From assembly GCF_900113065.1 (NCBI RefSeq), contig NZ_FOOA01000004.1, positions 1 to 64,000 of the forward strand: DNA of 64,000 nucleotides, given 5' to 3'. The stretch comes from Aureimonas phyllosphaerae (GTDB lineage: Bacteria > Pseudomonadota > Alphaproteobacteria > Rhizobiales > Rhizobiaceae). Shown one piece after another: positions 12,330-31,021 of this stretch (position 1 is the stretch's first letter; each line of letters starts with the position of its first letter). Both the position numbers and the translations under genes were made by a program. Below the pieces are notes generated by a model. That model was not told where the DNA came from. It did no database searches and saw only the letters and a program-made list of their open reading frames with translations.

Positions 12330-12497
12330 CCGACCCGTCGTTCCCTGCCGCCCGCCCCGACCGCATGGGGCTGAGAGAGCCTGATGATGCCGCGCCGCGT
12401 GATCAGGCGGAATTACGATTTTCCCAATCGCGCGGTGCTGTCGTATAACGGGGCCCCGCAGACCATCGGTCTCGCGTCGGAGGCCTGGAAATCTTTG

Positions 12498-15055: not shown

Positions 15056-16391
15056 CGACCCGAGAAAGGTCGAGTTGCCGCTTGGCGAAGACATTGCGCG
15101 TGTCGACGCCCAGCCGCATGTGTGCCGCAACCAGCGCATAATCGACGTCGTCGTGGTCCGTCGCGACCAGCACGGCGTCGAAGTCCGCGATCGCCTGAGC
15201 GGTCAGCGCGATGGAGCGGCGTCCCGCAAGCTCGCGATGCTCGCGCGTCGGACCGATCTCGGGAACATGCGGGTCGTGATAGCTGGTGTGCGCGCCCCGG
15301 TCCTCGAGCAGCTCGATGAGCCGGAACGAGGCGCTCTCGCGCGTGTCCTCGACGTTGCGCTTGTAGGCCACGCCGAGCACGAGAATCCGGGAGCCGTTCA
15401 GGCCTCGCCCGAACCGGCGGTCTAGCGCTTCCGCCATACGGTCCACGACATGGCGCGGCATCGCGGTGTTGATCTCACCGGCAAGTTCGATGAAGCGCGT
15501 CGGAACCTCGAACTCGCGCGCCTTCCACGCGAGATAGAAGGGATCGATCGGGATGCAGTGGCCGCCGAGGCCCGGGCCCGGCTGGAACGGCATGAAGCCG
15601 AAGGGCTTGGTCGATGCCGCGGCGATGACGTCCCAGACATCGATCCCCATCGCGTCGTAGACGACCTTCAATTCGTTGACGAGAGCGATGTTGACCGAAC
15701 GGAAGATGTTCTCGGTCAGCTTGACCGCTTCCGCAACGGCGGGGCTCGATACGGGCACGGTCGAGGTCATCGCCGCCGCATAGAGCGCGTCGGCGAGCCG
15801 CGATGCATGCGCCCCGTCGCCGCCGACGATCTTGGGAATGTCCCGCGTGCCGAAATCGCGATTGCCGGGGTCTTCACGCTCCGGCGAGAAGGCGAGGAAG
15901 AACCCGTCGCCCGAGCGTGCGCCCGCCTCCTCGAGGATGGGCTTCACGATCTCCTCCGTGGTGCCCGGCCATGTCGTGGACTCAAGGACGACGAGCTGGC
16001 CGGGTCGAAGGGTGCGGGCGATCTGGCGGCTGGCGCGCTCGACGAAGGAAAGGTCCGGCTCGCGCTGACGCGTCAGCGGGGTGGGCACGCAGATCAGGAT
16101 GGCGTCCGCTTCGCCGAGCCGCTCGAAATCCGCGCTCGCCTCGAAGCGATCCTCGGCGAGGGCCGCCCGGATCGCGTCCGCCGGGATGTGCCGAATACCG
16201 CTTTCGCCACGGTTGAGAAGCGCGACACGGCGTTCGTCGATGTCGAAGCCGAGCACCGGGAAGCCCGCGCGACACAAGGTCAGCGCGAGCGGCAGCCCGA
16301 CATAGCCGAGCCCGATGATCGCAACGCGTGCCTTGCGGTCGGCGATCAATCGCGCGAGCTTCGTTGCCAGTGGGTTCTCGGCTTCGGTCAA
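15045..16391 (-). CDS. Nucleotide-sugar dehydrogenase (UDP-glucose/UDP-HexNAc 6-dehydrogenase family)
   Basis: NAD-dependent four-electron oxidase making a UDP-uronic acid, 448 residues. It shows the Rossmann IGLGYVGLPLA, ICVPTPL, ESTTWPGTTEE, AFSPEREDPGN, KLTENIFRSVNIALVNEL and the catalytic cysteine in GGHCIPIDPFY (near residue 279). The C-terminal domain has VLGVAYKRNVEDTRESAS. Features such as the serine-rich loop and the HCIPIDP form fit the WbpA/TviB-like UDP-GlcNAc branch as well as UDP-glucose dehydrogenase, so the exact substrate is open. The start is a TTG at 16391 behind GAGGAGG, overlapping the upstream TGA as TTGA. Confidence 0.88.
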   Translation of the reverse strand: MTEAENPLATKLARLIADRKARVAIIGLGYVGLPLALTLCRAGFPVLGFDIDERRVALLNRGESGIRHIPADAIRAALAEDRFEASADFERLGEADAILICVPTPLTRQREPDLSFVERASRQIARTLRPGQLVVLESTTWPGTTEEIVKPILEEAGARSGDGFFLAFSPEREDPGNRDFGTRDIPKIVGGDGAHASRLADALYAAAMTSTVPVSSPAVAEAVKLTENIFRSVNIALVNELKVVYDAMGIDVWDVIAAASTKPFGFMPFQPGPGLGGHCIPIDPFYLAWKAREFEVPTRFIELAGEINTAMPRHVVDRMAEALDRRFGRGLNGSRILVLGVAYKRNVEDTRESASFRLIELLEDRGAHTSYHDPHVPEIGPTREHRELAGRRSIALTAQAIADFDAVLVATDHDDVDYALVAAHMRLGVDTRNVFAKRQLDLSRVVKA

Positions 16392-18292
16392 ACGGCAGCC
16401 TCCTCGTTGTCTGGCGTCGTCGCCATGAGCGCGTCCGTGTCCATCCACACCGCGCCGGGATGGACCGCCAGCCGTTGAAGAAGGCGTTCGACGAAATGCC
16501 AGATTCGCCGGTCGTGCGCGAGGTGATGGGTGAGGATGCCGATCGGCTCGTCGCGGTCGAGATCACGGACGAGCTTTTCCAGAATGTCCGCTTCGTCCGC
16601 GAGGCCGCGGCCGTGTCGCCAGGCGATGGGGTCGCAATGCGTGTTGACCACCGCGAGCCCATTCCTTCCGGCGGCCTTGCGCGGTCCGAATGTCGAGAGA
16701 CCGCGATAACCGCTCGCCCGGAGATGCGGGACGAGCTCGTCGTCGATACGGTTCCAAGGCGGTGCCAGGAGCGGCCGCACGCGCGGCCCGAACAACGCTC
16801 GCAGGCTGCCGAGCCCTTCCCGGAGCCCCTCCAGAATTTCGCCGGCCGGCCGGTATCCGAGTTCGCAGCTCTTCCGGCCCGGCGGCGCATTGTTGGCATG
16901 CCGGATGCCGTGAACGATCACCGCAAGATGGTCGGGTTCCCGGCTTAACCGGGTCGCCAACCGGTCGCTCGCAAGGCGTGGGCTGACGGCGAGCGCCAGC
17001 GGCAGGTTCAGCCGGACTCGCACCTCCAGCAGACGATCCAGCGCGTCGCACGGCTCGGCCGCGTCGTCGTCGCGCCACCAGAGCCGCGCCGGGCGCCCCT
17101 CTCGTGCAAGCGCGTCGAGGCGCTCGTCCAATGCGCCCCAGGCGGCCGCGTTGCGCCGCGCCCGCATGCCGGCGTCCTCGATCGCGGCCACGCTGCCCTC
17201 GACGCCACGCGTGACGATGTGGGGCGCCGTGTCGAGCGACAGGGTTCGCGCCTCCTCGACGGCCTTCAGGAGTGTCGTGGGCGAGAGTTCGCTGGCCGGA
17301 AGCAGCACGGCGAGACCGGACGCCGCCAGTCTTGTCGCGCGCAGGCTCTGCTCGCGCTCGCCCCCGTCCTCGAACGGCACCAGCACCGCGGGAGTACGGG
17401 CGGCGGCGATGTCGAGTGCTGTGTTGTAACCGCTCTGGCTGATGGAAACGGCGGAGCGCGCGAGAAACTCGCGAAAGTCGCGACGCGCCCGTTCCACCAC
17501 GAGCCGGGGATGGGCACCCGCCGCAAGCGCTTCGAACGCCGCATCGGGCACGCCGTGGCCGACGAGGACCCGCCAGATCGCATCTCGGGCATCGAGACGC
17601 GATGCAGCAACAGCCGCCTCGAACAGGGGAAGCCCGGCAACCCCGCCGCCGCCGGATACGACGACGTCCCGTGTGCGCGGCTGCGTCCGCTCGACCGGAG
17701 CGCCCTCGGCGACATAGCCCGTATAGATCAGGCGGGCGCGCAGCCTGTCGCCGACAGGCCAGGACGCCTCGAGCGGAACCGCCGCCGGATCGCCGTGCAC
17801 GAGCACGCCATCATAGCGCTCGGCGACGATCGTCTCCGCCTGATCGACCTTTTCGGGACGCGCGGGCGGATTGAGGATGTCTCGCACCGAGGCAAGGAGG
17901 ACCGGTCGATCGGGGCGCGCCCAGACCGCCTCGACCAGCGCCTCGAACTCGCCGCGCAGCGAGCGCCGGCCAAACGGATAGGTTTCCGTGACGACGACAT
18001 CGGGCCGCATGCGATCGAAGGTGTCGAGCAGCGCCTCGCGGCGGGCCGCCATCCCCGTCTCGTCGAGAACCGCGCCGTCATCGGTCCAGAGCGTGCGGAA
18101 GTCGGCATTTCGGCAATGAACCGGAAGAAGCTGGACGACGTCGAGGCCTTGCATGTCGAGATGGGGGACCGGCCGTCCGCCGGCGGCAAGGCAGACGTCA
18201 TGGCCGGCGTCCGCCAGCCCCCGGCCGAGCAACGTCGCGCGCGCGAGATGCCCGATCCCGAGAAGATGGGTGACGACGATCAGGATGCGCAC
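16388..18292 (-). CDS. Glycosyltransferase-polysaccharide deacetylase fusion
   Basis: A 634-residue two-domain protein. Residues 1 to about 370 are a MurG/UGT-like GT-B glycosyltransferase (LLGIGHLARATLLGRGLA, VVSGGGGVAGLPLFEAAV, SISQSGYNTALDIAAA, VLVPFEDGGEREQSLRA). From about residue 400 a deacetylase-like (NodB-related) region follows: LWWRDDDAAE near 402, HGIRHANNAPPG, PLLAPPWNRIDDELV near 510 and ILTHHLAHD near 587. A separate gene at 31936-32721 encodes only the second domain with the same motifs. The fusion may add a sugar and trim its acetyl group in one enzyme; this is inference. It overlaps the upstream glycosyltransferase by 13 bases. Confidence 0.85.
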   Translation of the reverse strand: MRILIVVTHLLGIGHLARATLLGRGLADAGHDVCLAAGGRPVPHLDMQGLDVVQLLPVHCRNADFRTLWTDDGAVLDETGMAARREALLDTFDRMRPDVVVTETYPFGRRSLRGEFEALVEAVWARPDRPVLLASVRDILNPPARPEKVDQAETIVAERYDGVLVHGDPAAVPLEASWPVGDRLRARLIYTGYVAEGAPVERTQPRTRDVVVSGGGGVAGLPLFEAAVAASRLDARDAIWRVLVGHGVPDAAFEALAAGAHPRLVVERARRDFREFLARSAVSISQSGYNTALDIAAARTPAVLVPFEDGGEREQSLRATRLAASGLAVLLPASELSPTTLLKAVEEARTLSLDTAPHIVTRGVEGSVAAIEDAGMRARRNAAAWGALDERLDALAREGRPARLWWRDDDAAEPCDALDRLLEVRVRLNLPLALAVSPRLASDRLATRLSREPDHLAVIVHGIRHANNAPPGRKSCELGYRPAGEILEGLREGLGSLRALFGPRVRPLLAPPWNRIDDELVPHLRASGYRGLSTFGPRKAAGRNGLAVVNTHCDPIAWRHGRGLADEADILEKLVRDLDRDEPIGILTHHLAHDRRIWHFVERLLQRLAVHPGAVWMDTDALMATTPDNEEAAV

Positions 18293-19425
18293 GACGACGG
18301 CCTTTCCCGCAGAAGCGGATGCAGGGTCGATGCGAGGCGCTGGACCGCCGACGCGAAACTGTGCCGGCCGGCGGCGTGCGCGCGGGCTCCCTTTCCCAGC
18401 CGGCGCAGATACGCGCGGTCGCGCCCGAGTTGCATGAGGCGGTCCGCAAGGCCCACCACGTCGCCGGCATCGGCGAGAAGACCGGAAACGCCGTCCTCCA
18501 CCACCTCGCCCACTCCGCCATAACGCATTGCCACCGCCGGGCGACCGTGGGCGGCCGCCTCGAGGTAGGACATGCCGAACGCCTCGTTGAACCCCGGCCA
18601 GACCAGCGCATCGGCGCGACGGTAGGCGGTCGCGAGCTGGCTCGGATCACCGGCGAGGCCGTGGAAGCGGACACGCCTGGCGATCGGTGCGAAGGCGGCC
18701 TCGACCTCGTCTCGCGCCTCGCCATCGCCGTGGATGTCCAGCGACCAGTCGATCTCGACGAGCGCCAACGCCTGCGCGAGGAGCCGGTAGGATTGCAGCT
18801 TGTCGGGCGCGCGCATCATCGCGGCCGCCACCAGTCGCAGAGGTCCCGCCTCCGGTATGGGCGCGATGTTCTCGTCCGTCACGTCGGCCACGAAGGGAGG
18901 CAGGTGGATGAGCCCGGCTTCGCTGCCGCGGAGCGTCGCCAATCCGGCGAGGTCCCGCCGGTTCAGGACGAGATGGAGGTCGGCCGTTCTCGACGCTCTC
19001 GCCGCCGCCTCGTGAAAGGAAGCGAAGGGTCCATCCCGCCGCTTCTCGGCGTGCGAGGCTTCCGCCAGCACGTACGGGATGCCGAGCGAGCGGGAGACGA
19101 CCGGCCCGAGGAGGTCGGGCGCCTTATAGTAGCTGTGATAGGTGAACCAGAGGCTCGGGCGTTGCCCTGGCGGCAGACCTCCCATGGTCGCGGCCAGTCG
19201 ACGGGCCTCCAGGCACGCCTGTTCGAGGAGCGCCGGCTGCCGACTGCCGTCACGCGAGAACGCGCGGAACGAGCTCGCCAGTTGCGGTGCGAAGCCGGCC
19301 TGGCGCACGGCCGAGAACAGCAGGCGAGCGAGGGTTCTGTCCCCCGAGGGAACAGGGTCGTCCGGCGACTTCAGGGGAGCGTAGAAGAGCAGCGGTGGGC
19401 GGGCCGACATCTGGTCGATTGGCAT
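18280..19425 (-). CDS. GT4 family glycosyltransferase
   Basis: Glycosyltransferase of the GT-B/GT4 group, 381 residues. It opens PPLLFYAPLKSPDDPVPSGD, then shows TYHSYYKAPDLLGP, a donor-domain LRLVAAAMMRAPDKLQSYRL and the characteristic ALVWPGFNEAFGMSYLEAAA with GFNEAFGMSYLE as the EX7E site and GGVGEVVEDGVSGLL behind it. The ATG at 19425 is the best of several weak starts; another lies at 19410. It is the first gene of the minus-strand arm (GT, fusion, dehydrogenase) and is divergent from the ABC exporter operon at 19605. Confidence 0.86.
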   Translation of the reverse strand: MPIDQMSARPPLLFYAPLKSPDDPVPSGDRTLARLLFSAVRQAGFAPQLASSFRAFSRDGSRQPALLEQACLEARRLAATMGGLPPGQRPSLWFTYHSYYKAPDLLGPVVSRSLGIPYVLAEASHAEKRRDGPFASFHEAAARASRTADLHLVLNRRDLAGLATLRGSEAGLIHLPPFVADVTDENIAPIPEAGPLRLVAAAMMRAPDKLQSYRLLAQALALVEIDWSLDIHGDGEARDEVEAAFAPIARRVRFHGLAGDPSQLATAYRRADALVWPGFNEAFGMSYLEAAAHGRPAVAMRYGGVGEVVEDGVSGLLADAGDVVGLADRLMQLGRDRAYLRRLGKGARAHAAGRHSFASAVQRLASTLHPLLRERPSSCAS

Positions 19426-19604
19426 GGCCCGTTCGCCGAGACAGTTGAGCCCCAGCCCTAGCGCACGCGGCATGCCCCGGCAAGCGGGCGGCGCCTTGCA
19501 GAAGGCCGGCAAGGCCGTCCGCGCTCCCGCCTTGACGGGCGGGAGGCTTGCTGCGCTCCTAGCGCGGAAACCTATATGCCCGTCCGAAGCCGGTATAGCA
19601 TCCC

Positions 19605-22319
19605 ATGGCAACCTCCCTGTATCGCTACATCTGGCACCATACGCGACGCGAACAGATCTGGATGCTGGTGGTGGTCGTCGTGTCCGTCATCCCGTTCTTT
19701 TTGTCGCTGAACCTTCCGAAGCTCATCATCAACGGGCCGATCCAGGGTGAAGGGTTCGAGGGCGCGGGCGCGACGGTCGACTACTTCCGGCTCACCATTC
19801 CCCTGCCCGGCTTCCTCGGTGGCAGCGACCACCTCGTGCTTCTCGACGGCACGCCGTTCGAGCGCATGGAGGCCCTTTTCGTCCTGTCCTCCCTGTTCCT
19901 CCTGTTCGTCGTCGTGAACGGGGCGTTCAAGTTCTACTTGAACACCTACAAGGGGCGCCTGGGCGAGCGGATGCTGCGGCGCATGCGCTACGAGATGGTG
20001 GACAGGGTCCTGCGCTTTCCCATACGCCAGTTCCGCCGCATCCGACCGGCGGAAGTCGCCTCCATGATCAAGGACGAACTGGAGCCGATCGGCGGCTTCA
20101 TCGGCGACGCCTTCGTCCAGCCGCTCTATCTTTCGAGCCAGATCCTGACGGCGATGATCTTCATCTTCCTTCAGAGCTGGACGCTGGGCGCTGTCGCCTT
20201 CGCCGTGACCGCCTTCCAAGCGATACTGATCCCCCGCATGCGCCGTCGGCTTCTGATCCTCGGTCGGGAGCGGCAGCTGACGGCCCGGCGCCTCGCAGGC
20301 TCGGTCGGCGAGATCATCGAAAGCATGCCGACGATCCGCACCAACGACACGTCGAACATCGTGCGTGCGCGAATCTCGGAGCAGCTCGGCCGCATCTTCC
20401 TGATCCGGTTCGACATCTACCAATGGAAGTTCTTCGTCAAATTCCTGAACAACTTCCTGTCGCAGGCGACGCCGTTCATCTTCTACATGTTCGGCGGCTA
20501 TTTCGCGATCCGTGGCCAGATCGACATCGGCGAACTCGTCGCGGTGATCGCCGCCTATCGCGAGCTGCCGGCCCCGCTCAAGGATCTCATCGACTGGGAC
20601 CTGATGCGCCTCGACGTGGACGTCAAATACGATCAGGTCGCCCAGCAGTTCGATATCGACGGCCTCCTCGACCCGGCGACGCAGGCCCCGATCGCTGCGA
20701 GTTCCGAACGGCTGGAAGGGGGATTCCAGCTGATCGAGGCGACGATCCGCGACGACACGGGCGCAGCGCTGGTCAGTGGGGTCTCGCTCGACTTGCCGCT
20801 CCACCAGCGGCTGGCCGCGGTCGGCCCTCTCGGCGATGGCGCCGAGGTCGTCGCCGAAGCGCTGGTGGGCCTCGCGCCGCTCGCCTCCGGCCTGATCAAC
20901 TTGTCGGGTCGGCCGCTCGGAGCGTGGCCGGAATCCGTCACCGGTCGGCGCCTCGCCTATGCCGAGCCGGCATCCTACTACCCGCGCTCCAACCTGCGCG
21001 AAGCCCTGCTCTATCCGCTGATGCATCACCCGCTGCACGACGCCCGGCCGGCGACGACCCGCTCCGAGTCGCGCATGCGAACGGAAGCGCTGCAGTCGGG
21101 CAACAGTCTCCTCGACCCCAACGACGACTGGATCGATCGTTCCGCGCTGTCGCCGGAGCCCGACGAAGAGATTGCCCGCATCGAGCAGATCCTGGTCGCC
21201 GTGGAACTGAGGCGGGACCTGACCCGGTTCGGCCTCTCCAGTCGCGTCCCCGAATGGCTGACGGCGAAGGCAGGCCCCAGGATCGTCTTGGCGCGCAGGC
21301 ATCTGGCCGCGCGGCTGCGCGAGGAGAAGCTCGACTCCATGGTCGAGCGGTTCGATCCCGGCGCCTTCCTCGACCATGCGACGCTGATGGAGAACCTCGT
21401 CTTCGGGGCCGCGCGTCAGGACGAGATCGCAGCCACCCGGCTCCTGATACGATCCGATGCTCGCCGCGTCCTGGAACGTCTCGGCCTCGACAGGACGCTG
21501 GTCGAGATGGGTCTCAAGATCGCGATGACGCTGGTCGAACTCTTCGGCGAGATCGGCGCCGACGACCCGATGCTGCGGCGCATGGACATCATCAGCCCGG
21601 ATGAGATCGACTTCTACCGGCAGATCGTCGTCCGGCTGGGATCGAGCGGCCGCACCGCGGAATCCGACGAGGATCGCGGCGCGCTGATCCGGCTGGCCCT
21701 GTCTTACGTGGAGCCGCGGTATCGCCTCGGCCTCGTGGACGATACCCTGCGCGCGCGCGTCATCGAGGCACGGACCCTGTTTCACGAGACCGCGTCGCAG
21801 ATGGTGCGCGAAGGCGTCGAGTTTCATGAGCCCGATCGGTTCAATCCCGCCGCAACGCTCAAGGACAACATCGTCTTCGGCCGCGTGGCGAACGCCACTC
21901 CCAAGACCAGCGCCCGCATCGACGAATTGCTCGACGCGTCGATCGACGCCTACGACCTCGGTCCCGTCGTGCTCCGGACGGCGCTGGAATACGACCTGGG
22001 AGCCGGTGCCAAGAGACTGAGTCTCGGGCAGCAGCAGAAGGTGACGCTGGCCCGCGCCATGTTGAAGGCGCCCGACTATCTCGTGGCCAACCGATGCCTG
22101 TCCGCTCTCGACGCCGACACGCAGGCGCGTATCCTGAGGTCCGTTCTTCAGCTCGCGCGGGACGCGGGCCGCCCGTTCGGAATGTACTGGGTTCCGAGCG
22201 CACCCATCGAAAACGAACTTTTCGACCGTATCGTGCGTTTCGAGCGTGGACAGTTGACGAGCGACAGTCTTGCCGACCGAAGCGAGCTTGTCCTATCGTC
22301 CTCTCCCGGGCCGCAATGA
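19605..22319 (+). CDS. ABC exporter-like protein with decayed ATPase domain
   Basis: A 904-residue protein whose first 350 residues are an ABC exporter transmembrane domain (spans near 18-36, 88-104, 155-190, 285-310). The nucleotide-binding half is degenerate. Where Walker A should be (about residue 406) there is VGPLGDGAEVV, lacking the lysine and following Ser/Thr. About 400 residues of charged helical sequence separate this from the signature LSLGQQQKVTLARAML near 805, against about 100 normally. Walker B reads YLVANRCLSALD, without the Asp-Glu pair. Sequences VFGAARQDEI and VFGRVANATPKT look like repeated Q-loop-to-helix segments. ATP-driven transport is therefore doubtful. It is the first gene of a four-gene operon with cyclic-nucleotide signalling genes. 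Confidence 0.85.
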   Translation: MATSLYRYIWHHTRREQIWMLVVVVVSVIPFFLSLNLPKLIINGPIQGEGFEGAGATVDYFRLTIPLPGFLGGSDHLVLLDGTPFERMEALFVLSSLFLLFVVVNGAFKFYLNTYKGRLGERMLRRMRYEMVDRVLRFPIRQFRRIRPAEVASMIKDELEPIGGFIGDAFVQPLYLSSQILTAMIFIFLQSWTLGAVAFAVTAFQAILIPRMRRRLLILGRERQLTARRLAGSVGEIIESMPTIRTNDTSNIVRARISEQLGRIFLIRFDIYQWKFFVKFLNNFLSQATPFIFYMFGGYFAIRGQIDIGELVAVIAAYRELPAPLKDLIDWDLMRLDVDVKYDQVAQQFDIDGLLDPATQAPIAASSERLEGGFQLIEATIRDDTGAALVSGVSLDLPLHQRLAAVGPLGDGAEVVAEALVGLAPLASGLINLSGRPLGAWPESVTGRRLAYAEPASYYPRSNLREALLYPLMHHPLHDARPATTRSESRMRTEALQSGNSLLDPNDDWIDRSALSPEPDEEIARIEQILVAVELRRDLTRFGLSSRVPEWLTAKAGPRIVLARRHLAARLREEKLDSMVERFDPGAFLDHATLMENLVFGAARQDEIAATRLLIRSDARRVLERLGLDRTLVEMGLKIAMTLVELFGEIGADDPMLRRMDIISPDEIDFYRQIVVRLGSSGRTAESDEDRGALIRLALSYVEPRYRLGLVDDTLRARVIEARTLFHETASQMVREGVEFHEPDRFNPAATLKDNIVFGRVANATPKTSARIDELLDASIDAYDLGPVVLRTALEYDLGAGAKRLSLGQQQKVTLARAMLKAPDYLVANRCLSALDADTQARILRSVLQLARDAGRPFGMYWVPSAPIENELFDRIVRFERGQLTSDSLADRSELVLSSSPGPQ

Positions 22320-22349
22320 CTTCGAGCACGTGCGAAGGAAGCAGCGATC

Positions 22350-22814
22350 ATGAGTCTTCTTGCGGACGAAGTCGAAGTCCTTCGGCGCACGCCCCTGTTT
22401 CAGGGGATCGAGCTCAGTCGACTGAAACTCGTGGCCTTCACGTCGCAGGTGATGCGGTTCTCGGATGGGGACGCACTGTTCCACCAGGGCGATACTGGCG
22501 ACAGCGCCTATCTCATCCTCGCCGGCGAGGCCATGGTCTTGGCCGATTCGCCGATAGGCGAGATCGAACTGGCACGATTGGGGCCGCACGAGGTGGTGGG
22601 GGAGATCGGTATCCTGTGCGACATTCCCAGGACCGCGACGGTGCGCGCCGTCGGCGATCTCGCCACATTGCGGATGGGCAAGGAGTGCCTGTCCGACATG
22701 CTGGATGCATTCCCTTCGATGGCGCGCGTGATGCTGCGCGAGATGGCGATGCGCCTCAACCGGACATCGGCCGAACTCGTATCGGCCCGCGCGGCGGCCT
22801 TGATTCCCACGTGA
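22350..22814 (+). CDS. Cyclic-nucleotide-binding domain protein
   Basis: Single-domain protein of 154 residues with a Crp-type beta-barrel and no DNA-binding domain. PLFQGIELSRL opens the domain, FHQGDTGDSAYLILAGEA is the strand-turn region, and the phosphate-binding cassette reads VGEIGILCDIPRTATVRA, with Glu85 and Arg94 in the ligand-contacting positions. It therefore probably still binds cAMP or cGMP. The start ATG follows AAGGAAGC. It lies 30 bases after the ABC gene and 25 before the metallohydrolase. It could gate or report on the ABC partner; no partner is proven. Confidence 0.9.
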   Translation: MSLLADEVEVLRRTPLFQGIELSRLKLVAFTSQVMRFSDGDALFHQGDTGDSAYLILAGEAMVLADSPIGEIELARLGPHEVVGEIGILCDIPRTATVRAVGDLATLRMGKECLSDMLDAFPSMARVMLREMAMRLNRTSAELVSARAAALIPT

Positions 22815-22839
22815 CGTCTTGAGCATCGTGCAGGCGGGA

Positions 22840-23682
22840 ATGCGCCTCACCGTGTGGGGCGCACGCGGAACCGTTCCCATCGCTCTGGAAGATCCGTCGC
22901 GCTACGGCGCGCGGACCTGCTGCGTGTCGATCGAGGCGCAAGGGCGAGTTCTGATCTTCGACGCCGGAACCGGGATCGTGGATCTCGGCAACCGGCTCAT
23001 GGCGTCCGGCGAGCGCGAGATCGACCTGTTCCTCGGCCATGCCCACTACGACCACGTGATCGGCTTTCCCTACTTCCTTCCCTTCTACAATCCAGCCTGC
23101 CGGGTTCGCATCCATGCCGGCCACATGCAGGACGGCCGGAACTGCCGGGCGCTCCTGGAGGATTTCCTGCGTGCCCCGTTCCATCCCGTGGGCCTCGAAA
23201 AGTTCAAGGCGGACATCGAGTACGTGACGTTCCGGCCGACGGACATGCTGCAGCCTTCGGCCGGCATCCGCATCACGACCCATGAACTCACCCATCCCAA
23301 CGGCGCCGTCGCCTACCGGGTGGAGAGCGACGGGCGATCGGTGGTCTATGCGACCGATCACGAGCATCGACCCGGCATGCGCGACGTCGCCCTCGAGACC
23401 TTCATCGCCGGCGCGGACGTCCTGATCTTCGACACGACCTTCACCGACGAGGAACTGCCTCGATACGTCGGCTATGGCCACTCGACCTACGAGGAAGGCG
23501 TGCGCCTCGCCCTGGCCACCGGGGTTCGGCGCCTTGTGCTGTTCCATCATTCCCACAAGCGGCCGGACGACGACCTCGCCCGGATCGAACGCGAGATGCA
23601 GACCCTGTTGCCGGGCGCCGTCGCCGGACGGCCGGGCCTGGAAATCGATCTGCCGGCGCTGCCTCGCGCGCCGGAGATCTAA
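22840..23682 (+). CDS. Metallo-beta-lactamase-fold hydrolase
   Basis: About 280 residues with an MBL-fold metal centre: HAHYDH at residues 67-72, THPNGAVAYRVE with its histidine, YATDHEH, IFDTTFTDEE and the late GHSTYEEG and LVLFHHSH. The pattern fits MBL-fold phosphodiesterase-like hydrolases rather than lactamases. Placed between a cyclic-nucleotide-binding protein and a cyclase, hydrolysis of the cyclic nucleotide is an attractive but unproven role. The ATG at 22840 has AGGCGGGA just upstream; TTG at 22819 and GTG at 22828 are alternatives. It is followed 9 bases later by the cyclase. Confidence 0.88.
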   Translation: MRLTVWGARGTVPIALEDPSRYGARTCCVSIEAQGRVLIFDAGTGIVDLGNRLMASGEREIDLFLGHAHYDHVIGFPYFLPFYNPACRVRIHAGHMQDGRNCRALLEDFLRAPFHPVGLEKFKADIEYVTFRPTDMLQPSAGIRITTHELTHPNGAVAYRVESDGRSVVYATDHEHRPGMRDVALETFIAGADVLIFDTTFTDEELPRYVGYGHSTYEEGVRLALATGVRRLVLFHHSHKRPDDDLARIEREMQTLLPGAVAGRPGLEIDLPALPRAPEI

Positions 23683-23691
23683 GGTCCGACG

Positions 23692-24924
23692 ATGGTGCTC
23701 AATACGTCCAAGATACTGGAGATCGGCGACTGGCTCATCCAGCAGGCGCTGGCGGAAAAGCCACTCGAACCCATGCTGGAAGGACTGGCCAACAAGCTCA
23801 ACCATGTCGGCGTGCCGATCGACCGGTGCCGCATGACCTGGTCGACACTCCATCCGCTCTTCGAGGCCGAAACGGTGCTGTGGACGTCGGGGCGCGGCAT
23901 CGAGACGAAACGCTTCGTCCATCAGGAGGAGGAGTCGCAGGAGTATCTGCGCAGTCCGATCAAATACATGCTCGACCACGATCTGGACTTCCTGCGGGGC
24001 CGGCTCGATGTGACGGGGGCACTTGCGTTCGATCTCTTCGAGGAGTTGCGCGCGGACGGATTCACGGACCTCATCAATCTGCGCACCAATATGTTCATGG
24101 GGCGCTCCGTCCTGCCGCTGCGCGCGGACGACCTCGGCCTCTATGTGACCTGGGCGACCCGCGCCCCAGGCGGCTTCCACGACACGGTGGTCGAAACCCT
24201 GAAGCAGCTGCAGCGCTACATGTCGCTGGTCTGCAAGCTCGGGATCTACCCCCGGCTGATCACGAGCGTCGCCGATACGTATCTCGGCCCGACCATCGCC
24301 CGAGAGGTCCTCGGCGGCCGCATCCGCCTGGGAAGCGGCAGTCAGGTGCGGGCGCTCGTCTGGCTGTCCGATCTGCGCAATTCCACGGGGCTTGCGGAAG
24401 ACCTAAGCGAAGACTGCTACCTGACCCTTCTCAACGATTACTTCGACTGCACAGGACGAGCGGCGATGGAGGCGGGCGGCGAGATCCTCGCCTTCATCGG
24501 CGACGCGGTCCTCGCCATCTTTCCGATCCAGGACGGCAAGCTGACGCAGGATGCCGCCATCAGGAAGGGCATCGCGGCCGCCCGCACGGCGCGCGGGGCC
24601 CGCCGGACCGTCAATGCCAGGCGCCGCGAGGCAGGCGACGTGGAATTCGACTTCGGCGTGGCGATGTGTGTCGGGGAGGTCCGGCTCGGCAATATCGGCA
24701 TCCGCCAGCGGCTTTCCTTCTCCGTAATCGGCCCGTCCGTCAACGAGGCCGAACGGATCGAGAAGGAGACCAAGCGTCTGGGCGTGCCGGTGCTGGCGAC
24801 GAGCGAAGTGGTCGATGTCGCGGCGGCGCACTGGCGGCGGGTCGGCTCCTTCACCCTGAGGGGAACGCATCACGAAACGGAGCTGTTCGGCCTTCTGGCC
24901 GACGACACGCGATCTTGGGCCTAG
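23692..24924 (+). CDS. Class III adenylate/guanylate cyclase
   Basis: A 410-residue soluble protein. Residues 1 to about 200 form a conserved regulatory region of unknown type with no membrane span. The C-terminal cyclase domain shows the first metal aspartate in VWLSDLRNST (near residue 227), the second in EILAFIGDAVLAIFP (near 271), and the transition-state pair in NEAERIEKETK (Asn and Arg near 351-355). All key catalytic residues look present, so it should make cAMP or cGMP. It is the last gene of the operon that also encodes a nucleotide-binding protein and a possible nucleotide hydrolase, and it converges on a permease gene. Confidence 0.9.
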   Translation: MVLNTSKILEIGDWLIQQALAEKPLEPMLEGLANKLNHVGVPIDRCRMTWSTLHPLFEAETVLWTSGRGIETKRFVHQEEESQEYLRSPIKYMLDHDLDFLRGRLDVTGALAFDLFEELRADGFTDLINLRTNMFMGRSVLPLRADDLGLYVTWATRAPGGFHDTVVETLKQLQRYMSLVCKLGIYPRLITSVADTYLGPTIAREVLGGRIRLGSGSQVRALVWLSDLRNSTGLAEDLSEDCYLTLLNDYFDCTGRAAMEAGGEILAFIGDAVLAIFPIQDGKLTQDAAIRKGIAAARTARGARRTVNARRREAGDVEFDFGVAMCVGEVRLGNIGIRQRLSFSVIGPSVNEAERIEKETKRLGVPVLATSEVVDVAAAHWRRVGSFTLRGTHHETELFGLLADDTRSWA

Positions 24925-24958: not shown

Positions 24959-26119
24959 TCACTCGGACAGGGGATCGAGCGCGTCCCGCAACCCGTCTCC
25001 CAGAAAGGAGAAGGCCAGGACGGTCGCCATGACCGGAACCATGGGGAGGAGCAGCCAGGGGTAAAGCACCACCGCCTCGATGTTTTGGGCTTCCGTGAGA
25101 AGGACGCCCCAGCTCGTGATCGGCGCGCGCAGGCCGAGATTCAGGAAACTGAGAGCCGTCTCGGCCAGGATCATCGAGGGGATCGCGAGCGCGGCCGACA
25201 CCACGATATGGCTCATGAAGTTCGGCAGGAGGTGCCGCGCGATGATGCGTGCCGGCCCCGCGCCCATCATCTCGGCCGCCGCGACGAAGTCCTCTTCGCG
25301 CAGGGAGAGGAGCTTGGAGCGCACGGCGCGCGCCAACCCCGGCCATTCGAGGCAGGCAAGGATCGCCGTGATCGCGAAGTAGACGAGGAGCGGACTCATG
25401 GTCACGGGGAGCGCGGCGGACAGGGCGAGCCAGATCGGCAGGTGCGGCAGGGAGCGCAGGATCTCCGTCGTTCGTCCCAGCCAGAAATCGGCCCGGCCGC
25501 CGAGATAGCCCGCGAGACCGCCAAAGAGCAGCCCGAGCGCAAGGGTCAGCGTCACGCCCAGCAGCCCGATCGTGAGCGAGATCCGGGCCCCGTGGACGAG
25601 GCGCGAGGCCATGTCGCGCCCGAGCCGGTCGGAACCGAGGAGAAAAGCCGTCCCGCCCTCCGGCGCGCAGTAGAGGTGCCGGTCCGCGTCCCAGATGCCC
25701 CAGAAGCGGTAGGGCTCGCCGCGGCAGAAGAAGCGGAGCGGCTGGGGCTTGGTGCGATCCTGCGTATAGCGACGCTGCAGCGTATCCATGTCGAGTTCCC
25801 CCTTCATCGCGTAGACGAAGGGGCCGAGAAACCGGCCGTCATGGAAGAGATGGACCGGCTGTGGGGGCATGAAGATGTGGCGCGTGTCGCGCGTCGCCAC
25901 ACCGGTCGGCGCGATGAACTCGGCGGTCGCAGCCACGAGATAGGAGACCACGAGAAACGCGAGCGAGACGACGGCAAGGCGACGGCTGCGCAGGCGCCAC
26001 CAGAACAGACGGCGGCTCGAAGCGCGCGCATAGTCCGCGCGAACGCTCGTATGCTCGCCCGTCTCGCGCTCGGCATCGAACGGGCGTGTGCTGACCCAGT
26101 GAGGAACCGGTTCGCTCAA
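24959..26119 (-). CDS. Peptide-type ABC transporter permease (OppC/YejE-like)
   Basis: Inner-membrane permease of the DppC/OppC/YejE group, 386 residues. After the first span (AVVSLAFLVVSYLVAATAEF) there is a large periplasmic insertion of about 120 residues (LFHDGRFLGPFVYAMKG through HLYCAPEGG), as in YejE-like proteins. GSDRLGRDMASRLVHGARIS then leads into the core, with the cytoplasmic EAA loop in EEDFVAAAEMMGAGPARII. The start is a TTG at 26119 overlapping the upstream TGA as TTGA, so it is translationally coupled to the other permease. It is the last gene of the importer operon. Confidence 0.88.
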   Translation of the reverse strand: MSEPVPHWVSTRPFDAERETGEHTSVRADYARASSRRLFWWRLRSRRLAVVSLAFLVVSYLVAATAEFIAPTGVATRDTRHIFMPPQPVHLFHDGRFLGPFVYAMKGELDMDTLQRRYTQDRTKPQPLRFFCRGEPYRFWGIWDADRHLYCAPEGGTAFLLGSDRLGRDMASRLVHGARISLTIGLLGVTLTLALGLLFGGLAGYLGGRADFWLGRTTEILRSLPHLPIWLALSAALPVTMSPLLVYFAITAILACLEWPGLARAVRSKLLSLREEDFVAAAEMMGAGPARIIARHLLPNFMSHIVVSAALAIPSMILAETALSFLNLGLRAPITSWGVLLTEAQNIEAVVLYPWLLLPMVPVMATVLAFSFLGDGLRDALDPLSE

Positions 26120-27114
26120 TGGCCGCGTCGCCCGGTGAGGCGCAGGCGCGGATCGATCAGCGCCAGAGCGACGTCCGAGACGAGCATACCCGCGACGGTG
26201 AGAATCGACAGGAACATCAGAAAGGACCCCGCCAGGTACATGTCCTGACTGCGAAGCGAGGACAGGAGCATCGGTCCCGTGGTCGGCAGCGACATGATCA
26301 CGGAGATGATCACCGAGCCGGACACAATCTGCGGCAGGAGATCGCCGATATCGGAGACGAAGGGGTTGAGCGCCGAACGCAGCGCGTACTTTCGCAGGAC
26401 GAACCCGTCCGACAGGCCACGGGCCGTGGCCGCGACCACGTAGGGACGGCGCAGTTCGTCGAGGAGGTTGGCCCGCAGGCGCTGGATCATCGCGGCCGTT
26501 CCGGACAATCCGATCACCACGACCGGAACCACCAAGTGGGCCAGAACGGACACGACCTTCCCGGTCGACCACGGCTGACCGAGATAGGCGGGATCCATCA
26601 TGCCGCCGATCGAAACGCCGAAGATCGCGTTGGCGACGTAGAGCAGGATCAGCGCGAGCAGGAAGTTCGGTGTGGCAAGCCCGACATAGCCGGTGAGCGT
26701 GAGCGAGCGATCCGCAAAACCATGCTTCCGCCGGGCGATGAAGAGGCCGAGCGGAAAGGACACGAGATACACGAAGAGGACGGTCACGAAGTTGAGGACG
26801 AGTGTCAGGAAGACCCGGTCGCCGATCACTTCGGAAACGGGCGCGGCATATTCGAAGGAGTAGCCGAAGTCGCCTTGGACGAAGCCGCTGATCCAGTGCA
26901 GGTACTGCACGGGCAAAGGCTGGTCGAGCCCGTACTGTTCGCGCAGGAACGCGACCTTTTCCTCCGCCTGCGCTTCCCCCTCGGCTCGCAGTTCCGCGAT
27001 CGAGTTGGTGAGATAGTCGCCTGGCGGAAGCTGGATGATAGTGAAGATCAGGATGCTGGAGACGAGGAGCGTCGACACCATCGTACCGAGGCGGAACAGG
27101 AGATAGCGCAGCAT
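26116..27114 (-). CDS. Peptide-type ABC transporter permease (OppB/YejB-like)
   Basis: Inner-membrane permease, 332 residues. It opens MLRYLLFRLGTMVSTLLVSS, the usual OppB first span, continues TIIQLPPGDYLTN, and has QYGLDQPLPVQYLHWISGFVQGDFGYSF before the core. The EAA loop is YVVAATARGLSDGFVLRKYALRSALNPFVS. The ATG overlaps the stop of the binding-protein gene as TAATG. With the next gene it forms the heterodimeric channel of the importer. Confidence 0.92.
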   Translation of the reverse strand: MLRYLLFRLGTMVSTLLVSSILIFTIIQLPPGDYLTNSIAELRAEGEAQAEEKVAFLREQYGLDQPLPVQYLHWISGFVQGDFGYSFEYAAPVSEVIGDRVFLTLVLNFVTVLFVYLVSFPLGLFIARRKHGFADRSLTLTGYVGLATPNFLLALILLYVANAIFGVSIGGMMDPAYLGQPWSTGKVVSVLAHLVVPVVVIGLSGTAAMIQRLRANLLDELRRPYVVAATARGLSDGFVLRKYALRSALNPFVSDIGDLLPQIVSGSVIISVIMSLPTTGPMLLSSLRSQDMYLAGSFLMFLSILTVAGMLVSDVALALIDPRLRLTGRRGH

Positions 27115-29075
27115 TACGGTCGAACCGGTGCCGCAGCGGCGGACGTCGTTTCGTCGGCGAGGAAGAACGTGTCGGGACGGTAGGAGCCGAGATAGGCGCC
27201 AGGTTCGAAGTTCCAGCGCCCCGTCTGCGGCAGGTTCTGCAATCGCCGCGTGGCGACGATGATCTGGTCGACGTCGGAGACGATGCCGATGCGCGGCAGT
27301 TCGTCCGCGTCGACCCGCAGCATCTCGTCCCAGATCCGGCGCTTCTCGGCGTCGTCGAGCGTCCGGCGCCAGGCCTCGTTGCGGTCGAGCTGCTCCCTGG
27401 CGAAGGCGAGCGTCGGCTGGACACCGAGCTTGCCGCCGCTCTCGTGGTTCAGTCCCCAGGTCGGCCAAGACGCCTGGGACGAGTCGGTGGGCGCCAGAGC
27501 GGCTGGACTGTCCTCAGCCCGAGCCGCACCGTTCTCCAGGCCGCTTCCGACCGTCACGAGCGGCGAACCGGCCGCAAGGCGCGAGGCCAGCGTGTCCCGC
27601 TCCACCGCCTTGAACAGCATGCGAACGCCGATACGGCGCCAGTCCTCGGCGACGAGCTGGAGAACGTCCGTCTGCTCGCCGTCCTCGCCGGCGAACTCCA
27701 CCACGAGATCGAGGGCTCGCCCGTTCGGCATGAGACGCGTTCCCGAACCGTCGCGGGCTTGAAGTCCCAGCCCGTCGAGCAGACGGTTCGCCTCGTCCGG
27801 GTCGAAACGGGCCCAGCGCGTGGCGAGCGCCTCGGTGAACAAGGGCGATGCCGGCAGGACGGTGTCGCCGGCCGGACGCGCCAGCCCGTAGTAGATCGCC
27901 TGCGCGATGTCCTCGCGGTTGATCGCAAGGGACAGGGCACGGCGGAAGTCGCTCGCCTGCAGCAGCGTCCGCCAGTCGGCATCGCCGGTGTTGAGGTTGG
28001 GGAAGAGCACCATCCGCGAGCCTCGCCCGCTCGGCCAGCGCAGGACCTTGTAGTTCGAGCGCCCCTCGGCCGCCTTCAGAAAGGCATAGTTCGCGATCGT
28101 GAGCGCCGTGCTCTGGAGATCGGTCTGCCCCGACGAGGTCATGGCAGGGATCAGCCCTGCGCTGGCGATCTCCATCGCGACCTCGTCGATGTAGGGCAAC
28201 TGGCGCCCTTCTGCGTCCACCCGGTGAAAATAGGGGTTGCGGCGAAACAGGAAGCGGTCGGCGGGCGGCTGGGTCACCAGAACCCAGGGCTGCAGCGATG
28301 GCAGATCGGGGTCGGTGTTCTTGTAGGACTGGTCATGTTTGAAGTGCAGCGCCTGCCAGTTGCGCTGGCCCTCCGCCTCGATGCGGCGCTGAAGCTCCGC
28401 AGCGCCCGCATAGCGCTTGTGGAACTGGCGGAGGTAGTGGGCCGGCCGAAAGATCTCGAGCGGCAATGATGCGGCCAGCGCGGGCATGAAGTCGGGATTG
28501 GCCTCCGCCCATTCGTAGCGGATCGTCCAGGCGTCGAGAAAGGTGACCGTCGGTCCGGCGCCATGCACCAGTAGTTGGCGCGGGAGGCCGCTCTTGCCAA
28601 GTTGCGGATCGTTGGCGACGTCCTCCCAGTAATAGCGGAAGTCTTCCGAGGTGAACGGTTCGCCGTCCGACCACCGATGGCCGCGCCGGAGGTGGAAGGT
28701 GAAGATCCGGCCATCCACGACGTCCACGCTCTGCGCGACGTCGGGCACGATGCGTCCGTCGGGCGTATAGCCGACGAGGCGCGCATAGCCGAAGACCACC
28801 ATGCGTCGCGTGTCACGCGCCTGCGGCTCGATCGTGCGCAGGGTGCCGCCGTAGCGTCCCGTCTGGCGCCCCATCGCGGCGAGGTCGGTGCGGAGCGGGT
28901 CCTGCGGCAGACGGTCGCGCATGGGGGGAATGTCCCCGCGTGCGACCTCATCCGACAGGATCGGAGGTTCGCCGTCCGCAGGCGCGGCCGCGACGATCGA
29001 CCAGGACCCCATGACGACGAGCGTCGGCAGCAGGAGGCGAAGGAGACTCGGACCGATCCGCACGCGAAGACCCAT
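27114..29075 (-). CDS. Peptide-type ABC transporter substrate-binding protein (SBP_bac_5)
   Basis: Periplasmic extracellular solute-binding protein family 5, about 653 residues. The signal sequence MGLRVRIGPSLLRLLLPTLV ends in VAAAPADGEPP, without a lipobox. Family motifs include GGTLRTIEPQA, TFHLRRGHRWSDGEPFTSED, NPYFHRVDAEGRQLPYIDEV and FRRALSLAINREDIAQAIYYG. This long type with the QLPYID segment resembles YejA-like peptide-binding proteins. Two starts compete: ATG at 29075, which gives the clean signal peptide, and GTG at 29156, which overlaps the upstream stop as GTGA but adds 27 residues before the signal. Confidence 0.88.
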   Translation of the reverse strand: MGLRVRIGPSLLRLLLPTLVVMGSWSIVAAAPADGEPPILSDEVARGDIPPMRDRLPQDPLRTDLAAMGRQTGRYGGTLRTIEPQARDTRRMVVFGYARLVGYTPDGRIVPDVAQSVDVVDGRIFTFHLRRGHRWSDGEPFTSEDFRYYWEDVANDPQLGKSGLPRQLLVHGAGPTVTFLDAWTIRYEWAEANPDFMPALAASLPLEIFRPAHYLRQFHKRYAGAAELQRRIEAEGQRNWQALHFKHDQSYKNTDPDLPSLQPWVLVTQPPADRFLFRRNPYFHRVDAEGRQLPYIDEVAMEIASAGLIPAMTSSGQTDLQSTALTIANYAFLKAAEGRSNYKVLRWPSGRGSRMVLFPNLNTGDADWRTLLQASDFRRALSLAINREDIAQAIYYGLARPAGDTVLPASPLFTEALATRWARFDPDEANRLLDGLGLQARDGSGTRLMPNGRALDLVVEFAGEDGEQTDVLQLVAEDWRRIGVRMLFKAVERDTLASRLAAGSPLVTVGSGLENGAARAEDSPAALAPTDSSQASWPTWGLNHESGGKLGVQPTLAFAREQLDRNEAWRRTLDDAEKRRIWDEMLRVDADELPRIGIVSDVDQIIVATRRLQNLPQTGRWNFEPGAYLGSYRPDTFFLADETTSAAAAPVRP

Positions 29076-29152
29076 ATGTGAGCGCACGTCCAGGCCGTGC
29101 GCATGAGGGCGAGGCTCGCATGGGGCCGACGGGCCCGCAAGCCGCCTCGCGC

Positions 29153-31021
29153 TCACCGGGCGATCTCGTTGCGGCCATCCTCATAGGCCTGGACGAAATG
29201 ATCGTGACTCAGCGCGATGAGTCCGGGCTCGTCCTCGCCGTCACGCGCGGTGAACGGCCAGCCCCATCCCGACGTCCCCTTCGCCTCGCCGCCTTCGAAG
29301 GCGGAAAAATCGGTGGGCTGCGCCGGATCGGGCTCCGGAATGGAGGCGATGAGGCGGCGCGTATAGGGATGCACGGGACGCGAGAACAGGGCATCGCGAG
29401 AGGCGACCTCGAGGATGCGACCGCCCGACATGACCGCGATGCGGTCCGCCAGATAGTTCACGACGGCGAGGTTGTGCGACACGAAAAGGTAGGTCAGACC
29501 GAGTTCGCGCTGCAGGTCGCGCAGGAGGTTGAGGATCTGCGCCTGGACCGACACGTCGAGAGCCGAGACCGGTTCGTCGAAGAGGATGAGTTCGGGCTCG
29601 AGCGCCAGCGCGCGGGCAATGCCGACCCGTTGACGCTGACCGCCGGACAGGCCGTGCGGAAAGCGCTGGAGATGCGAATCCGGCAGACCGACGATCGCCA
29701 GCAACTCGCGGGCCCGCTCGCGCCGCGACGCCCGCGTGCCGATCCCGTGAATCTCGAGCGGCTCGGTGAGGATCGCCTCGATGCTCATCCGGGGATCGAG
29801 CGCGAGATAGGGGTTCTGGAAGACGTATTGGACCCGGCGCCGCCACCCCTTCAGCGTGTCGCCTCGAAGGTCGAAGACGTCCTGCATGCGTCCGTCCGGC
29901 ATGCGCATCTCCACCCGCCCCGTGTCCGGCCGTTCGGCCCGAGCGAGGATGCGCGACAGCGTGGTCTTGCCCGAGCCGCTCTCGCCGACGAGGCCGAGAC
30001 ATTCGTGGCGGCGGATCGTCAGGTCGACGTCGCGCAGCGCATGGATCGGCGCGCCGCCACCGAAGCTACGGGAGCGGAACGTACGCGAAAGGCCGGTGGC
30101 CTCCACCAGGACATCGCCCTGCCCCTGTTCGCGCCGCCGGCCGAACTTTGCCAGCGCGTCCGCGGTCCGGATTTCCCGTAGCGGCTTCAGGCGCTCCTTG
30201 CGCGAGCGCGAAAGACGCGGCACCGAGCGCATCAGGGCCTTGAGGTAGGGATGGCGCGGATCGGCGAAGAGGTCGGGGACGGAGCCCGATTCCATGGCGG
30301 CACCATGGTGCATCACGACCATCTCGTCGGCCATCGAGGCGACGACCCCGAGATCGTGGGAAATCAGAAGGAGAGCCGTTCCATGATCGTCCCGAATCCT
30401 CGCAAGGAGGCGCAGGATCTCGGCCTGGACCGTCACGTCGAGCGCGGTCGTCGGCTCGTCCGCGATGATCATGGCGGGTCGGCAGACGATCGCCAGCGCG
30501 ATCATGGCGCGCTGGCAGAGGCCTCCCGAAAGCTGAAAACTGTAGGCCGCCGACGCCCGCTCCGGATCCGGGAAACCGACGTCGCGAAGGGCCTCCAGCA
30601 TCGCCGCGCGCGCGCCGCGCTTGTCGAGTTCGGGGCGATGACGGCGGAGGACGTCGAGGATCTGTTCGCCGATCGTGTGCAGGGGCGACAGCGCGGCGGC
30701 GGGCTCCTGGAACACCATCGAGATCCGGTCGCCCCGGATGTCGCGGTATCGCGGGTCGCTGCGCGAGAGAGCCGCCAGGTCGATCGACCCATCCGTCTTG
30801 GGATCCCGGAACAGGATGCGACCGGACAGGCGAAACGCCGTTCGGGGGAGAAGGCCGAGGATCGTGTGTGCGGTGACGGACTTGCCGGAGCCCGACTCTC
30901 CGATCAGCGCGAGCGTTCGTCCCGCACGGACCTCGAACGAAAGGTCGTCGACGGCACGGATCCGCCCTTCCAGCGTCCGAAACTCGATCGAAAGGTTCTC
31001 GACGGCCAGCAGCGGGGACAT
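29153..31021 (-). CDS. Fused double-ATPase subunit of peptide ABC transporter (YejF-like)
   Basis: One 622-residue protein carrying both ATPase domains that are separate DppD and DppF in most systems. Domain 1 has [30 protein letters not shown] and [11 protein letters not shown]; domain 2 has [38 protein letters not shown] and [12 protein letters not shown]. All ATP-binding and hydrolysis motifs are intact. The C-terminal peptide-transporter extension ([19 protein letters not shown]) is present, plus about 35 further residues. It is the first gene of the operon, so the order is ATPase, binding protein, permease, permease. Confidence 0.94.

Follow-up and report, generated by a model that had tools for sequence, protein, structure and literature searches.

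Most of what is known about cyclic mononucleotides in bacteria concerns their binding to transcription factors and, to our knowledge, few targets have been described for the class III nucleotide cyclases of Alphaproteobacteria. A cyclic-nucleotide-controlled membrane protein is already known in kind. In CFTR and SUR the fold of an ATP-binding cassette (ABC) exporter has been turned into a channel and a channel regulator, respectively, with degenerate ATP sites and, in CFTR, with control linked to cyclic AMP (cAMP). NHLM/NHLP bacteriocin export is another of the closest known systems; an exporter-type ABC protein is tied there, judged by family name, to a protein with a cyclic-nucleotide-binding domain (cNBD). 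Here we describe a four-gene operon in a stretch of 64,000 nucleotides from Aureimonas phyllosphaerae (contig NZ_FOOA01000004.1; hereafter the window), which encodes an ABC exporter-fold protein (ABCx), a cNBD protein, a hydrolase of the metallo-β-lactamase (MBL) fold and a class III cyclase (CYC) (Table 1). With moderate confidence, this operon is taken to form a complete cyclic-mononucleotide circuit, which would make, bind and degrade its signal and act directly on ABCx, a putative pseudo-ATPase, within a surface-glycan locus. Support at the sequence level comes from gene linkage, natural cNBD-ABCx fusions, the phosphate-binding cassette of the cNBD, degenerate ATPase motifs, a phosphodiesterase-type active site and the finding of a single class III cyclase in the genome. 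From these features we infer nucleotide binding, gating, hydrolysis in vivo and a glycan as cargo.

In the open reading frame (ORF) listing of the window the four genes form one tight run on the forward strand. The gaps of 30, 25 and 9 bases given in a preliminary description of this DNA were found again, the second being counted from the ATG of the MBL gene and amounting to 4 bases from its TTG. The four family assignments made there are likewise borne out by Pfam: ABCx matches ABC_membrane (1.5e-21, 77.7 bits) and ABC_tran (6.1e-8), the cNBD protein cNMP_binding (7.1e-18), the MBL protein Lactamase_B_2 (PF12706; 2.2e-17, 63.8 bits) and CYC Guanylate_cyc (2.6e-4). At 21.1 bits the last match just misses the Pfam threshold of 21.9, and it passes with 23.1 bits in the genome search.

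Compared with the NHLM/NHLP systems, similarity is limited. The best NCBIfam match of ABCx is TIGR03796 with 109.2 bits (curated cut-off 853.3) and the second-best match of the cNBD protein is TIGR03896 with 44 bits (curated cut-off 161.05), so that both stay far below the curated cut-offs; in addition, the ATPase motifs of ABCx are degenerate and the genes reside in a glycan locus. From MsbA-type exporters of lipid A and polysaccharides ABCx is set apart by the loss of the motifs in its nucleotide-binding domain (NBD), by some 250 inserted helical residues that split this domain, and by the cNBD partner. CFTR and SUR share with ABCx the exporter fold with degenerate ATP sites, but these proteins are eukaryotic, and it is phosphorylation or ATP/ADP that controls them rather than a fused cNBD. 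A full-text literature search of partial coverage, which is no proof of novelty, returned no paper on cyclic-nucleotide control of a bacterial ABC exporter or on such a gene combination. There is a real chance that ABCx is gated by a ligand, which would make it an ABC protein of a type so far unreported from bacteria.

The Walker A position of the window ABCx reads GPLGDGAE instead of GxxxxGK[ST], Asn829 and Arg830 occupy the places of the Walker B aspartate and the catalytic glutamate, and the H-loop histidine is likewise replaced. Alignments place extra copies of ENLxFG-like motifs inside the insertion and just after it. A model of ABCx matches the folds of MsbA, TM287/288 and P-glycoprotein, in line with an exporter transmembrane domain; SUR structures are also found among the matches, and residues 368–898 align with the ComA NBD, around the insert. 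These matches were judged by Z and aligned ranges, as the Foldseek TM-scores are low (query-normalised, 0.21–0.39 in the rows shown), probably due to the insert and to domain placement.

Loss of the ATPase motifs is a trait of the family: GK[ST] is missing from the Walker A site of 177 of the 183 ABCx homologues, and the position of its Ser/Thr is taken by Glu or Asp in 156. The family is mostly alphaproteobacterial and occurs in 132 of 385 genomes of Alphaproteobacteria. Against the relatives in Aureimonas, the ratio of nonsynonymous to synonymous substitutions (dN/dS) is about 0.22–0.23 overall and 0.10 in the transmembrane domain, the most constrained part, with a dN of about 0.06 versus 0.29 in the insert. 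Both the purifying selection and the presence in 132 genomes rule out a decaying pseudogene, and the "decayed" exporter of the preliminary description has to be given up. Judged from its sequence, ABCx is instead a stable pseudo-ATPase family that has probably lost the ability to go through a normal ATP cycle. The alternative that ABCx still exports with the help of ATP despite its unusual site, and is merely tuned by the cNBD as an add-on regulator, is unlikely, although it agrees with the exporter fold and with those homologues that retain the Walker A lysine (61/183), the catalytic glutamate (54/183) or the entire G....GK[ST] motif (six); the Walker B aspartate persists in 16. What argues against it is the replacement of the Walker A lysine, the Walker B pair and the H-loop histidine, all three in the window protein, together with the acidic residue at the Ser/Thr position in most of the family.

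Two further observations concern the distribution of ABCx. Five genomes (G283, G506, G513, G528 and G629, all of the same order) contain an ORF of 880–1016 amino acids that matches only residues about 516–887 of ABCx; such ORFs, which cover the insert and the C-terminal NBD and include locus L136 from G283, are perhaps a second divergent branch. Genomes G154, G331 and G042 carry two or three ABCx copies each, and the copies fetched from the first two (L129–L132) are fused to a cNBD.

The cNBD protein is a near-constant companion of ABCx. Co-occurrence in other genomes, proposed as a check in the preliminary description, was examined in two sets: 100 ABCx loci from 97 of the 132 ABCx-bearing genomes, and 80 GTDB loci, the best 80 of 514 relatives, which are rich in rhizobia and may overlap the first set in species. 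In the first set the cNBD is encoded by the next gene in 82 loci, and in 12 more it is joined to the ABCx C-terminus in a single protein (94 of 100 together); in the second it adjoins ABCx in 79 loci, the contig ending in the remaining one. That the two proteins act jointly is indicated most strongly by their natural fusion, as in L114 and L119. As claimed previously, the Glu-Arg cassette of the window protein is intact (Glu85, Arg94), and among 157 aligned cNBDs, picked by a similarity of 75 bits or more to the window cNBD, Gly84 and Arg94 are invariant and Glu85 is kept in 146. The predicted nucleotide-binding surface of the cNBD thus appears to be retained while the ATP site of ABCx is lost.

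In CYC, some 190 residues at the N-terminus form a domain that precedes the catalytic one of class III; the nearest solved sequences are 2w01 and CyaB (3r5g). The claim that all catalytic residues are present holds for Asp227, Asp271, Asn351 and Arg355, which we take to be the metal-binding aspartates and the transition-state residues; it fails at position 267, presumably the substrate-specifying one, where the canonical lysine of adenylate cyclases is replaced by Ala. Since lysine is found at this position in just 2 of 27 CYC-type cyclases (Ser is commonest, with 17), the base of the product is uncertain. No class III cyclase other than CYC was found in the 99.98% complete genome (one match to PF00211 at E ≤ 0.01 and one to a profile of the CYC family), and no match to a class I cyclase was obtained there, class IV and other types not having been searched. 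In 40 alphaproteobacterial genomes there are 2–35 class III cyclases per genome. At the same locus elsewhere a cyclase is frequent and of another subtype, about 450 amino acids long, membrane-bound by eye and with the canonical lysine kept (L152, L163, L169 and others). That the enzyme changes but its place in the locus does not points to local production of the cyclic nucleotide as the feature that counts.

In the MBL protein, the HxHxDH metal motif, His159, Asp205 and His243 are invariant across 24 sequences, and the top Foldseek match is YhfI (E 3.5e-16). Pycsar antiphage systems, too, combine a cyclase, a cNBD effector and an Apyc1-like MBL protein, and the PADLOC models PycC and PycTIR match CYC (1.1e-17) and the cNBD protein (1e-14), because the cyclase and cNBD domains are shared; the fold matches of the MBL protein also include Apyc1 structures (7u2s, E 6.3e-10, rank 39). 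In Pycsar the cNBD comes attached to a TIR or transmembrane effector domain, whereas Pfam finds in the 154-residue cNBD protein cNMP_binding and no effector domain. With a conserved glycan locus, and a cyclase in half of the loci, next to no credence can be given to a Pycsar-like role. The MBL protein is probably an atypical class-II cyclic-nucleotide phosphodiesterase: with Rv1339, CpdA of Corynebacterium glutamicum and YhfI it shares PF12706, HxHxDH and an RNase Z-like fold. This class is reported to be defined by PF12706 plus [T/S]HxHxDH (PMC9293780), and YhfI is reported to prefer cAMP/cGMP (PMC9117128). A methyltransferase-like protein of about 275–282 amino acids (by eye) follows the MBL gene in loci L151, L159 and L174, which are free of a cyclase there.

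Recurrence of MBL and cyclase genes near ABCx, the other part of the co-occurrence check, was also observed. Within up to 10 kb on each side (10 of the 80 GTDB loci are shorter than 20 kb), 40 loci contain an MBL gene and 40 a cyclase, with both in 33 and at least one in 47. In 40 genomes covered by a pair of adjoining stretches, of up to about 39 kb, the corresponding numbers are 24, 21, 13 and 32, with neither in 8. An earlier view from flanks of about 9 kb, which made MBL and cyclase outsiders to the cluster, was overturned by wider flanks and by named genomes. Moreover, the Opp side of 40 extended loci (0.78 Mb) holds 24 cyclases, carried by 19 loci, versus about 2.5 expected from 530 cyclases in 40 whole genomes (166.5 Mb from rounded sizes); the resulting tenfold excess is approximate, as locus and genome counts used different profiles. 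In 11 of these 40 loci the cyclase gene converges on oppC at a distance of 2–114 bases (34 in the window).

The conserved unit is larger than four genes and adds glycosyltransferases, a UDP-sugar dehydrogenase (UGD) and an Opp-like importer. Besides the glycosyltransferase families GTps (64), GT28 (61), GT4b (60) and GT4 (37), the 80 loci contain OppDF (67), the solute-binding protein (52), OppB (50), OppC (49) and UGD (19), which upholds the suggested link to the adjoining polysaccharide locus. Such a neighbourhood could mean that the genes are co-located merely through a shared glycan, the MBL protein cutting another phosphodiester and the cyclase signalling to other cNBD proteins, four further cNMP_binding matches being present in the genome. 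The absence of the MBL gene from half of the loci points the same way, yet the cNBD-ABCx fusions, the recurrence of the cyclase in different subtypes and a cyclase within 3.5 kb of the MBL gene in 34 of 64 cases make this quite improbable. Linkage to glycosyltransferases together with a degenerate ATPase would also suit a non-transporting membrane scaffold, in which ABCx and the cNBD switch the neighbouring glycosyltransferases upon nucleotide binding. This is rather improbable, and the constrained transmembrane domain is at least as compatible with a working passage through the membrane, without being decisive.

Several findings weigh against a closed circuit acting on ABCx. Six first-set loci (L033, L049, L053, L062, L100 and L136) have neither a separate nor a fused cNBD by the test used; the first three of these have less than 2 kb downstream, L033 carries a short cNBD-like ORF of 96 amino acids, and L136 matches ABCx only in part (119 bits). 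Half of the GTDB loci are without MBL and half without cyclase within 10 kb, and 33 of the 80 have neither, so that the nucleotide would come there from other or more distant genes, unless the circuit is incomplete in some genomes. ABCx and MBL lie within 30 kb of each other in just 37 of 100 genomes, among the matches listed with both, where about 1% would be expected by chance (60 kb of a 4–5 Mb genome; our estimate), and in Sinorhizobium meliloti the MBL gene is farther off than a flank of the 10 kb type. The central stretches around ABCx (99 loci, 1.88 Mb) hold 11 cyclases versus about 6 expected; in the first-set loci the excess sits at the Opp end. Unlike the atypical class-II phosphodiesterases, the window MBL protein has Gly and not Thr/Ser before HxHxDH, a position held by Thr in the majority of the 24 sequences, and it scores 44 bits against an NF041851 cut-off of 400. 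The missing substrate lysine leaves the activity of CYC uncertain, and the structure model comprises ABCx alone.

For the cyclic-nucleotide circuit favoured here, the following mechanism is proposed. CYC would make a cyclic nucleotide, which would be bound by the cNBD protein sitting on the cytosolic side of ABCx. Binding would shift the conformation of ABCx and replace ATP as the gating input, turning on or off the passage or assembly of a surface glycan, the product of the glycosyltransferases and the UDP-sugar dehydrogenase encoded nearby. Destruction of the nucleotide by the MBL phosphodiesterase would then reset the switch. Whether this extends to a widespread alphaproteobacterial ABC exporter-fold family that no longer runs on ATP and is instead ligand-gated by a cNBD, with a dedicated cyclase and MBL hydrolase, is more doubtful, though a possibility to be taken seriously. 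If true, a cyclic-nucleotide-gated ABC protein would control surface glycan traffic, and an exporter fold would be maintained by selection without the usual ATPase. A conserved direct membrane target, often with synthesis and hydrolysis alongside, would also explain part of the gap between many cyclases and few targets.

The nearest relatives, Aureimonas sp. AU4 and A. jatrophae, show 77–78% ABCx identity and an identical gene order. ABCx (46% identity), cNBD, cyclase and glycosyltransferases are also found in Plasticicumulans lactativorans (L191), which we take to be a gammaproteobacterium and in which the set is probably a result of horizontal transfer. On pSymB of S. meliloti 1021, the region at about 822–844 kb contains MBL, UGD, cyclase, Opp, glycosyltransferases and ABCx (L263, about 841.7–844.4 kb); in strain ml46 the cNBD follows ABCx and a cyclase is present, so that all four families occur at this locus when both strains are pooled. 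The ABCx frame looks broken in the record of strain 1021 (longest ORF 762 amino acids), and full-length ABCx is an annotated coding sequence in the ml46 record and a full-length match in that of strain 2011. In ml46, the homologue of GT28 and one of those of GTps are each represented by two ORFs (L139, 11420–12640 and 13871–15000), which suggests broken glycosyltransferase genes.

Three candidates from the S. meliloti literature were considered. MsbA2 (SMb21191) was rejected as an ABCx relative: its operon is placed at about 938–943 kb of pSymB, and a 597-residue exporter-like ORF near that position matches OppDF (55.9 bits) better than any other window query, ABCx included. The tag of SMb20813, given as an msbA homologue, could not be mapped and no identity with ABCx is claimed; SMb20804/20805, for which a capsule effect is given, could not be placed on the ABCx locus.

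Table 1. Features of the ABCx locus and its surroundings (positions in the window).
Feature	Position	Strand	Remark
ABCx, 904 aa	19605..22319	+	ABC exporter-fold protein; degenerate NBD split by helical insert
Walker A position of ABCx	20823..20849	+	residues 407–415; Lys to Ala, Ser/Thr to Glu; alignment to same-genome exporter (L003)
Insertion splitting the NBD	21045..21809	+	residues about 481–735; mostly helical; alignments and structure model
Signature to Walker B region	22014..22112	+	residues 804–836; Walker B Asp-Glu to Asn-Arg
cNBD protein, 154 aa	22350..22814	+	near-obligate ABCx partner
cNBD phosphate-binding cassette	22599..22640	+	residues 84–97
MBL-fold hydrolase, 287 aa from TTG	22819..23682	+	in-frame ATG at 22840; probable atypical class-II cyclic-nucleotide phosphodiesterase
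HxHxDH metal motif of MBL protein	23038..23055	+	
CYC, 410 aa	23692..24924	+	class III nucleotide cyclase
GT28-like glycosyltransferase	12384..13760	+	
GT4 glycosyltransferase	13763..15055	+	
UDP-glucose/GDP-mannose dehydrogenase	15045..16448	-	
Glycosyltransferase GT28-C	16388..18292	-	
GT4-type glycosyltransferase	18280..19611	-	true start probably downstream of TTG
OppC-type permease	24959..26215	-	convergent with CYC gene, 34-base gap
OppB-type permease	26116..27468	-	ORF runs upstream of likely start
SBP_bac_5 solute-binding protein	27114..29156	-	
ATPase with two ABC domains	29153..31021	-	fused OppD/OppF type

The four-gene run is flanked by a group of glycosyltransferase and UDP-sugar dehydrogenase genes (12.4–19.6 kb) and by a complete Opp-like importer (25.0–31.0 kb). 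For the C-terminal half of the GT28-C product Pfam gives no match; judged by eye, this half presumably resembles a polysaccharide deacetylase. None of the twenty ORFs tested at 1.0–12.4 kb and 31.8–44.5 kb, many of which match no family, belongs to a polysaccharide family, and the locus is taken to extend from about 12.4 to 31.0 kb. Farther downstream, positions 36793–37875 encode one protein in which a Crp-type helix-turn-helix precedes a C-terminal response-regulator receiver domain, an unusual order.

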